64,000 nt of DNA, from positions 1 through 64,000 of the forward strand of contig NZ_JAATJG010000014.1 of assembly GCF_011927765.1 (NCBI RefSeq), written 5' to 3'. The notes under the pieces were generated by a model that did not search any database, was not told the DNA's origin, and saw only the letters and a program-made list of their open reading frames with translations. Source of the DNA: Wenyingzhuangia aestuarii. Its GTDB lineage: Bacteria; Bacteroidota; Bacteroidia; Flavobacteriales; Flavobacteriaceae. Both the position numbers and the translations under genes were made by a program. How positions within the stretch are numbered: the stretch's first letter is position 1; each line of letters opens with the position of its first letter. Positions 59,618 to 61,997 of the stretch are shown piece after piece.

Positions 59618-60329
59618 ATTTGTATTTAATTTTAAGAAGGTTCTTAATCTTAATACAAAATCTTTTTAGTCTCCTTAAACACTGTGCTTCAAGACTTCGC
59701 TCGAAGACCGTATAGTAAGATATTCAAACAGCAATAAGGGCGTTCGAGTAGCCTGTGCTGAGTTACACCGAAGTAGAGTCGAGAACAAAAATATTTCTTG
59801 TTATAGTAACCTTTAATTGTACCTAAACACTGTGCTTCTCGACTTCGCTCGAAGACCGTATGTTAATAGCAAATCATTCGAAGCGTGTTCGAGCAAAGGC
59901 ATCCTCAGAGGGTGTTCGAGCTCATTCGAGAACTGGAAGATCTCTTGTTTTAGAAACCTTTAATTATACCTAAACATTATGCTTCTCGACTTCGCTCGAA
60001 GACCGTATATATTACACTACAAAGCCACAAAGGGTGTTCGAGTAGCTTGTACTGAGTTACACCGAAGTATAGTCGAGAACTGGAATATTTCTTAATTATA
60101 GTAACCTTTAATTGTACATAAACATTCTACTTCTCGACTTCGCTCGAAGACCGTATGTTAATAGCAAATCATTCGAAGCGTGTTCGAGCAAAGGCATCCC
60201 TAAAGGGTGTTCGAGCGCAGTCGAGAACTGAAATATCTCTTGTTATAAGAAACCTTTAATCACACCTAAACATTATGCTTCTCGACTTCGCTCCTTTAGA
60301 TTAGTAAAGTGTATTTTTTTTAAATTTAG

Positions 60330-60490
60330 AAAAGAGAAAAAGAAGTTTAAGTAAACTATGACATCCGCTCTGAGACTCCAATCTCGTGTCTTGATTTAGA
60401 CTTAAACTTCTTATTCATCAAAAACTCAAATAGAAATTCGGGAGGTAGAGCCCATTATTAAGGAGTTAAGTAATTGATGATTTTTCTCAT
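60330..60490 (+). ncRNA. Candidate IS110 bridge RNA
   Basis: Two consecutive stem-loops lie between the left end and the transposase. Loop 1: a perfect 13-bp stem (60340-60352 with 60400-60412), an inner GAGA/TCTC hairpin, a 5' side with CGCTC (60366-60370, identical to the left target flank) and a 3' side with GTCTT (60388-60392, complementary to AAGAC of the repeat's right flank). Loop 2: stem TCATCAA/TTGATGA (60415-60421, 60474-60480) with ATAGAAAT (60430-60437, identical to the IS right end) and AAGGA (60460-60464, complementary to TCCTT at the left junction). Boundaries are approximate. Confidence 0.65.
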
Positions 60491-60514
60491 TTCACTTCAC
60501 TTAAACGCTAATTT

Positions 60515-61492
60515 ATGCAAAACATCATTATCGGTATTGATATCAGTAGTAAAACTTTAGATATCTGTTTAAAACAAGAAAAGCTAATTGAATATTACAA
60601 AATAGAAAATACTCAAAAGAGCATTAGAAAATTCTTCAAGTCTTATCAAGAAGAGAAGTTAATTGTTGCTATGGAGAATACAGGGAGATATAATTGGGAA
60701 TTATATGATGTATTACCAGAGTTTAATTTTACTGTTTTTGTTATTAATCCACTACATCTGTCTAAAAGTCAAGGTTTAGTTAGAGGTAAAAATGACAAAG
60801 AAGATTCTTATCGAATTACGCTATTTACAGAAAAGAATAAAGAGGATCTATCTCCTTGGATGCCTAGCTCACTAGCTATTAGAAAAATTAAAGTTTTAAT
60901 GACCGAACGAAATGCTAGGATTAAAACTAAAAGAAGATTAATCAAACAAAAAAATGATTATAAGAAAATGAGGACTTTAGGATTGACACAAAGCCTTACT
61001 AATTGGAATTTACAGCAAATACATCAGTTAGATAAACAAATTAAAAAAATAGAAGAGTTGATTCAACAGACAATTGACTTAGAACCTGAGCTTAAAAAAC
61101 AACAAAAACTAATGCTTAGTGTACCGGGTGTAGGAAAAGTTGTGAGCTGGACTATGATTGCCAAAACAGAAGGTTTTAAAAAAATTACAAACCCAAGGAA
61201 AATGGCTTGTTATTCTGGTGTAGTGCCTTTTGAATATCAATCAGGAACTTCAGTTTATAGGAAGCCTAGAGTCTCTATGTTTGCAGACAAACAAATGAAA
61301 TCTATATTACATCTTGCTGCAATGAGTGCGATTCGTTTGGAAAACGACTTACAAGTGTATTATCGCAGAAAAGTAAAACAAGGCAAAAATAAGATGGCTG
61401 TTTTGAATGCTGTCAGAAACAAAATTATACACCTCATTTTTGCTATTATAAAATCTGAAAATTTATATCAAAATCGTTTGGTAACGTCATAG
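60515..61492 (+). CDS. IS110 family transposase (DEDD recombinase)
   Basis: A 325-aa transposase. N-terminal RuvC-like DEDD domain (1-150): IIGIDISSKTLDI (Asp 8), VAMENTGRYNWEL (Glu), VRGKNDKEDSYRI (two Asp). A coiled-coil middle (about 145-200) and the C-terminal Transposase_20 domain (LMLSVPGVGKVVSWTMIAKT, CYSGVVPFEYQSGTSV with the presumed catalytic Ser) follow. The length is normal and there is no frameshift, so the element looks intact. The bridge RNA lies upstream, as in the IS110 rather than the IS1111 subgroup. Confidence 0.93.
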   Translation: MQNIIIGIDISSKTLDICLKQEKLIEYYKIENTQKSIRKFFKSYQEEKLIVAMENTGRYNWELYDVLPEFNFTVFVINPLHLSKSQGLVRGKNDKEDSYRITLFTEKNKEDLSPWMPSSLAIRKIKVLMTERNARIKTKRRLIKQKNDYKKMRTLGLTQSLTNWNLQQIHQLDKQIKKIEELIQQTIDLEPELKKQQKLMLSVPGVGKVVSWTMIAKTEGFKKITNPRKMACYSGVVPFEYQSGTSVYRKPRVSMFADKQMKSILHLAAMSAIRLENDLQVYYRRKVKQGKNKMAVLNAVRNKIIHLIFAIIKSENLYQNRLVTS

Positions 61493-61997
61493 AAATCGAT
61501 GACCGTATGTTAATAGCAAATCATTCGAAGCGTGTTCGAGCAAAGGCATCCCCAGAGGGTGTTCGAGCGCAGTCGAGAACTGAAATATCTTTTGTTATAG
61601 CAACTTTTAATCACACTTAAACACTGTGCTTCTCGACTGCGCTCGAAGACCGTAGGGTAACACCACACCCCTAAAGGGTGTTCGAGCGGAGTCGAGAACT
61701 GGGATGTTTTTTGTTATAAACAAACCTATCACTCAAAGGGTGTTCGAGTAGCTTGTACTAAGCGGAGACGAAGTAGAGTCGAGAATACATTATAAAAGCA
61801 TCCCTAAAGGGTGTTCGAGTAGCTTGTACTGAGTTACACCGAAGTAGAGCCAACAATATATTATCATACATCCCTAAAGGGTGTTCGAGCGCAGTCGAGA
61901 ACAAAAATATTTCTTGTTATAGTAACCTTTAATTGTACCTAAACACTCTACTTCTCGACTTCGCTCGAAGACCAAATAGTAAGATATTCAAACAGAA

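Follow-up and report, generated by a model that had tools for sequence, protein, structure and literature searches.

An IS110-group element with a predicted left-end bridge RNA in a REP-like repeat array of Wenyingzhuangia aestuarii

The window (the whole 64,000-nucleotide stretch of Wenyingzhuangia aestuarii DNA analyzed here) holds a complete IS110-group element at positions 60292–61497, in which the recombinase gene lies behind a predicted left-end RNA. We consider it very likely that this element resides in a REP-like array and carries a left-end bridge RNA that guides donor and target pairing as in IS621. The analysis establishes the element with its ends, a covarying RNA fold, full donor complementarity, agreement of guides and targets across eight elements at a single register, and a repeat target for this copy. 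A sequence-only reading of this DNA had proposed the bridge RNA of an IS110 element, and the proposal is borne out by recombinase homology, a covarying two-loop RNA, donor guides of the IS621 pattern, and one-register concordance. The coordinates of all features are collected in Table 1.

Table 1. Features of the element and its insertion site, in window coordinates
Feature	Position	Strand	Remarks
Tandem array of REP-like units with a period of about 148 (295 dimer), holding the element	59676–60293	.	
Left TC core copy	60292–60293	+	TC at both ends in 26/26 complete placements, which were chosen by end patterns that already demand TC at both ends
IS110-group insertion sequence, 1204 bp with one core counted	60294–61497	+	Repeat sequence on both flanks
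TAGATTAG, -7-like box of the proposed promoter, in left end	60297–60304	+	Spacing of 20 to TTTG in 8/8 elements
Bridge RNA (predicted)	60309–60485	+	From structure; both ends inferred, the start about 5 nt past the -7-like box and the end past the donor-loop stem
Left target guide with core, CATCCGC-TC	60362–60370	+	Family register; 4/6 core-adjacent bases match the site
Hairpin at tip of target-binding loop	60372–60385	+	Two-sided changes in 3/4 pairs
Right target guide with core complement, GTCTT-GA	60388–60394	+	Family register; own site 1/5 Watson-Crick, 3/5 with wobble
Left donor guide, ATAGAAA-T	60430–60437	+	8/8 pairs in 8/8 elements
Right donor guide, UA(UU)AAGGA, two bases skipped	60456–60464	+	7/7 pairs in 8/8 elements
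IS110 recombinase, 325 aa	60515–61492	+	PF01548 and PF02371; D9, E54, D94, D97, S243
TTTG, -33-like box of the proposed promoter, within end of recombinase gene	61477–61480	+	
Left donor (right end), ATAGAAA	61489–61495	+	Overlaps recombinase stop codon, 61490–61492
Right TC core copy	61496–61497	+	Dinucleotide shared with 60292–60293
Right target flank, remainder of the interrupted unit (GATGACCGTATG...)	61498–61572	+	Matches the unit tail from 60146 on at 72/75 positions

Results

The element and its repeat target

The recombinase matches PF01548 (6.7e-19) and PF02371 (2.2e-18) and aligns with the chains of IS621 (4.4e-20) and ISCro4 (2.2e-23). It thus combines the DEDD domain and the C-terminal domain with a conserved serine that define the IS110 family; the five residues listed in Table 1, which were assigned from the IS621 alignment, are present in all eight elements compared below. 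The recombinase genes of the window and of Tamlana agarivorans differ with a dN of 0.09 and a dS of 1.31, and the protein has therefore been under selection. The noncoding left end spans 221 nt (60294 to the gene) versus 5 nt 3′ of the stop codon, which places the element in the IS110 rather than the IS1111 group. Gene and element share bases at their ends: the stop codon falls within ATAGAAA of the donor, and GTCATAGAAATC is kept in 8/8 elements.

The dinucleotide common to both junctions is TC, not CT, and TC-CTTTA is also read in two left-end relics found by DNA similarity. We favor TC as the probable core of the element over an alternative displaced by a single base (NT), since the end of the left donor guide and the skip in the right donor guide speak for TC.

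The left flank ends in CTTCTCGACTTCGC-TC and the right flank starts with TC-GATGACCGTATG. Units of the array read TC-GAAGAC, while the occupied site reads TC-GATGAC. The host genome (3.53 Mb) contains 82 sites of the TCGACTNCGCTC type within one mismatch, the element's own left junction included, compared with 3 for the control. By eye, 22 of these continue with GAAGACC and 14 with GATGACC. Since GATGACC follows CGCTC at 14/82 sites, the occupied right flank is a normal repeat variant. The sequence-only reading had noted a weaker right match at the occupied site; in the register found in relatives the match is 1/5, and a damaged target is not needed to account for it.

In a congener (G002), the same two neighboring genes flank a repeat that lacks the element. 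Relic ends lie at G002:C1:412809-412870 (L132), G002:C23:44111-44206 (L130), and G000:C2:71563-71590 (L002), and each borders repeat-like sequence at TC, as judged by eye. The relic right end in G002 reads ATAGAAA-TC-TGCAACC, with an unbroken TCCGC-TC-TGCAACC nearby; the relic left ends read GACTGCGC-TC-CTTTA in G002 and GACAGGC-TC-CTTTAG in the host genome. One intact copy was found in the host genome. The protein search gave one match (5/5 candidates scored), and the DNA search gave, besides the window copy, only a 28-base match (40/113 first-look candidates scored).

The window holds a second tandem, repeat-rich array at 61735–61889, with a period of about 71 bases. Both arrays lie between an ORF that by eye resembles alcohol dehydrogenase and an ORF starting with MATFEKG. 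In G001, G002, and G004, repeats of this kind also occur 3′ of the alcohol dehydrogenase-like ORF.

Relatives of the element

A DNA pattern of the donor loop matched 29 stretches in the genome contigs collection: 18 in Salegentibacter maritimus, 5 in Mesonia (two records), 3 in Lutibacter sp. HS1-25, and one each in Tamlana agarivorans, a Gillisia MAG, and a Bacteroidetes MAG (DX1.bin71). With the window, the donor-loop places numbered 32 (31 in L049–L077), and the 26 that have both ends entered the tests as eight distinct elements, namely the window copy and seven relatives. Six places without an end (L050, the 3265 place of L051, L056, L061, L069, and the 7819 place of L071) were left out. 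L043 and L044 are the same elements as L073 and L063; duplicates of these and of the Salegentibacter places were counted once. Protein identity to the window copy is 84% for Tamlana, 67% for Lutibacter, 52% for DX1, and 47–48% for the others. Many Salegentibacter copies lie at contig ends, so one copy supplied a left flank and another a right flank. The register and wobble permutations used only distinct flanks of at least 13 bases. The match counts per copy include one flank from the dropped L061, and the left flanks of L056 and L069 were displayed without being permuted.

A protein match at or below 1e-30 was obtained in 51/397 family genomes. Besides the host genome, the nearest three (48–52% identity) were used; the rest reach at most 44%. 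Peptide-pattern scans yielded no relative in the genome contigs (34 stretches, none confirmed) or in viral contigs, and the donor-loop pattern matched nothing in viral contigs. A distant blastn search with the left end gave no match in plasmids, and the 2387 records of the plasmid protein search were all below 60% identity and did not enter the comparison. Pattern scans matched 2/395 order genomes and 4/397 family genomes and added no new species, as judged by the places of the matches.

In two of the Mesonia places, L056 and L069, a left end with a bridge-RNA-like stretch starts about 160 bases 5′ of the donor loop and the recombinase is reduced to its first codons. These left ends lie directly 5′ of an ORF that by eye resembles a response regulator; the next ORF is histidine-kinase-like. 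Their target guides are unlike those of the complete Mesonia copies.

Fold of the bridge RNA

When the eight left ends are folded jointly with RNAalifold, 32 pairs form a long target-loop stem and a donor-loop stem, each with a tip hairpin. These are two stem-loops with internal guide loops, as expected for a bridge RNA. Two-sided changes occur in 17/32 pairs (shuffled mean 7.8), paired cells reach 90.6% (78.4), two-sided cells number 34 (11.0), and the covariation score is 0.377 (0.161); for each of these measures, 0/500 shuffles were as high. Further pair types (22 versus 20.7) were reached by 164/500 shuffles and are not above chance. Pairing drops to 25–50% when the structure is slid along the alignment. 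The two-loop fold claimed in the sequence-only reading is thus seen in the covariation of relatives and is also predicted for the window RNA alone, at −38.3 kcal/mol with a moderate z of −2.34 (7/200 shuffles fold equally well). A 5′ stem-loop before the target loop, like that of IS621, is absent from the consensus of eight, in which this stretch aligns badly. A check against bridge-RNA models had been suggested; the Rfam search, with E up to 1, returned no bridge-RNA match. It also returned a sub-threshold CRISPR-repeat match on the opposite strand inside the gene, which we take as chance.

Donor guides

The guides lie where the sequence-only reading had put them: CGCTC at 60366–60370, GTCTT at 60388–60392, ATAGAAAT at 60430–60437 and again at the right end (61489–61496), AAGGA at 60460–60464, and TCCTT, the partner of AAGGA, at 60292–60296. 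Both donor guides had been identified correctly, and the right one proves to be longer than AAGGA. It comprises UAUUAAGGA, which forms 7/7 pairs with T-C-C-T-T-T-A when two U are flipped out. The same arrangement is described for IS621, in which the left donor guide pairs with positions 1–8 and includes only the first core base, while nine RNA bases of the right donor guide pair with seven donor bases (positions 8–14), two U being flipped out (PMC11208160, PMC11208158). In 8/8 elements, the donor loop is complementary to both element ends. Because guides and ends are invariant across the eight elements, this agreement is a pattern match and not covariation.

Target guides across the family

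The target guides were anchored on TC after the left guide, read as the core, and on GA after the right guide, read as the core complement; we picked these anchors with the sequences in view. Seven positions of each guide were scored against its own flanks and against the flanks of the other elements. At offset 0, left guides scored 33.2/56 with their own flanks versus 20.1 with others and right guides scored 32.4 versus 18.7, with exact permutation P values of 0.0011 and 0.00012 that are approximate because the elements are related. Other offsets from −2 to +2 gave no signal (P 0.28–0.93). The left and right P values were 0.0040 and 0.0004 without the window, 0.0044 and 0.0004 without one Mesonia variant, and 0.014 and 0.0014 without both. 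Allowing rG:dT and rU:dG pairs gave 0.0009 and 0.0003 over seven positions and 0.0030 and 0.0005 over five. With wobble, the two core-adjacent right positions pair in 8/8 elements, and the two left ones in 7/8 and 8/8. For the family of eight, the target loop therefore agrees with the insertion site.

Salegentibacter shows this most clearly. Its guides AACAAGT-TC and AGCAT accompany sites such as GAAACAAGT-TC and TC-AGCATGAC, and its target repeat occurs at 114 sites versus 0 for the control within two mismatches; the same pattern has 0 sites in the Mesonia and DX1 genomes. Some Salegentibacter copies match on the left at only 3/6 positions. One shared repeat pattern was counted 33 times in Tamlana (control 5) and 12 times in Lutibacter (control 2); its count in Gillisia (15 versus 13) is not above the control. 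The right guide of Lutibacter matches at 2/5 positions, and that of Mesonia A at 5/5, with 2/6 on the left. The latter values are found in the Mesonia place L063/L044, in which the right flank resembles, by eye, a DNA-methylase gene and not a repeat; its two flanks may stem from different sites after rearrangement.

Target guides of the window copy

Taken alone, the target guides of the window copy match their site weakly. The sequence-only reading had predicted that the flanks of other copies would match loop 1; this holds as concordance across the family but poorly for the window's own guides. For the left guide, the proposed place is right and the proposed match is too long: CGCTC consists of CGC plus the fixed TC, and two of its letters are uninformative because they are fixed by the core. 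For the right guide, the place again stands, while the proposed match of GTCTT to AAGAC lies one base off the family register. In that register, GA (60393–60394) is opposite the core and GTCTT predicts AAGAC directly after TC, where the site has GATGA. The resulting 1/5 Watson-Crick match is the lowest of the eight elements (2 to 5 in the others). When U·G wobble is allowed, 3/5 positions pair, including both core-proximal ones. The guide-predicted TCCGCTCAAGACA has no site with 0 or 1 mismatch in the host genome, and its 30 sites with two mismatches compare with 27 for the control.

The right guide thus fits its present site poorly; it has probably either drifted after insertion or is used through its core-proximal pairs alone (T8, C9, U·G10, U-A11). 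IS621 is reported to tolerate few mismatches (PMC11208160). Among the readings of the window copy, drift since insertion seems likeliest, although we give it slightly less than an even chance. The element would have inserted with another target loop, or with the help of another copy's RNA, and the loop would have changed since. The Tamlana guide TTCTTC-GA, from an element whose protein is 84% identical, fits the right flank of the window copy at 4/5 positions versus 1/5 for that of the window; the RNAs of the two elements are otherwise similar, and their differences include the guide segments. The host genome has yielded a single intact copy. On the left, however, the Tamlana guide fits the site at 3/6 positions versus 4/6 for the window's own. 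In addition, the more distant Lutibacter has GTGTCCT, which is close to GTGTCTT of the window, and the window may therefore preserve the older state. The core-proximal positions also still pair with wobble.

Another reading keeps the guide and shifts its pairing by one base, so that GTCTT pairs with AAGAC of TC-G-AAGAC and one target base is left unpaired at the core. Such a slip matches five other array units in the window at 5/5 positions; by arithmetic, a five-base match at offset +1 or −1 has a chance probability near 2/1024 before other ways of looking are counted, and some IS621 off-target sites seemed to tolerate target insertions (PMC11208160). Yet offset +1 carries no family signal (right P 0.71), the nearly identical Lutibacter guide (GTGTCCT) accompanies the site AGTGTGAC, and the occupied site, GATGAC, matches at only 4/5 at that offset. 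We consider the slip unlikely. It is very improbable that the recombinase mRNA simply has a leader or attenuator hairpin in this region and that the guide matches are coincidental, given the guide-target concordance over eight elements and a donor complementarity that includes the skipped-base pattern, even though the region lies directly 5′ of the gene and the ISPpu9 gene is described as regulated by small RNAs and a structured leader (PMC8450116).

A candidate promoter split between the ends

When the right end is joined to the left end, (T/C)TTG-20-TAGA(C/T)T(T/A)G is formed in 8/8 elements, a pattern written after seeing the eight elements. The published Bacteroidetes consensus is TTTG/TANNTTTG, with a -7 box whose two middle positions almost never carry G and a -33 motif that is much less evident (PMC6847099). 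The elements described here have G at the first middle position of the -7-like box, and in the window box the G at the third base and the A at the seventh deviate from the published box. We propose a split promoter of the Bacteroidetes type that would form only in the circle. It remains a proposal because the box departs from the consensus at the middle G and because the published -33 motif is much less evident. The IS621 promoter is likewise split between both ends (PMC11208160, PMC11208158).

Discussion

The comparison with IS621 suggests a model in which the element is cut out by its recombinase and circularized. Joining of the ends would generate the Bacteroidetes-type promoter (TTTG, 20 nt, TAGATTAG) from which the bridge RNA is transcribed. 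The donor loop would pair with the circle junction, the left donor guide with the right end and the first core base, and the right donor guide with the core and the left end. The target loop would pair with the genomic repeat around the TC core, and the RuvC and serine domains would exchange strands at the core. For the window copy, this analogy is our ground for proposing expression, use of the promoter, a circular form, the chemistry, and any present activity.

Like IS621 (PMC11208160, PMC11208158), the element combines a DEDD RuvC domain and a serine domain with a left-end RNA that has two guide loops, and the core takes part in pairing. Further likenesses are the left donor guide that ends at the first core base, the discontiguous 9-nt right donor guide on seven donor bases, the split promoter, and the REP targets. 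The core is TC here and CT in IS621. T at core position 9 is described as almost invariant in IS621 and its relatives, and the cores tested in that work were CT, AT, GT, and TT (PMC11208160, PMC11208158). The promoter boxes resemble the Bacteroidetes -33/-7 type in contrast to the sigma-70 type of IS621. The right end lies about 5 nt past the gene, unlike in IS621, and the 5′ stem-loop is missing from the poorly aligned stretch of the consensus.

ISPpu9, ISPpu10, ISPa11, and ISRm19, which we compared by description only, are IS110 family elements of Pseudomonas and Sinorhizobium hosts that also insert in REPs; all counted copies do so (7/7, 7/7, 6/6, and 4/4, respectively; Tobes and Pareja 2006, PMC1525189). 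As proposed here, the noncoding RNA of the seekRNA elements, which include IS1111 and IS110 types, guides target choice (PMC11187229). IS1111 elements have subterminal inverted repeats (PMC11187229) and carry the RNA in the right end (PMC11208160), whereas the RNA here lies in the left end. Bridge RNAs of IS110 elements, REP targets, and natural guide-target concordance have thus been published (PMC11208160, PMC11208158, PMC1525189, PMC11187229). No paper in the open-access library that we searched joins IS110, Flavobacteri, and bridge RNA. What chiefly sets the element apart from the described systems is its TC core, and other TC-core elements may be known.

It is tempting to speculate, though we hold the idea only tentatively, that a TC-core clade of Flavobacteriaceae tracks host repeats by rewriting its short target guides alone, while donor guides and ends stay frozen. 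Core position 9 would be C in this clade, unlike in any core described for IS621, its Bacteroidetes -33/-7 promoter would be split between the ends with one half inside the recombinase gene, and core-proximal pairing that includes U·G wobble may suffice for insertion.

The findings otherwise confirm known biology in a new clade and reveal no new kind of system. The eight related elements provide a compact natural test set in which the fold and donor guides are constant and the target guides and sites change together. They also point to TC-core recombinases in a phylum whose promoters are unlike those of E. coli.
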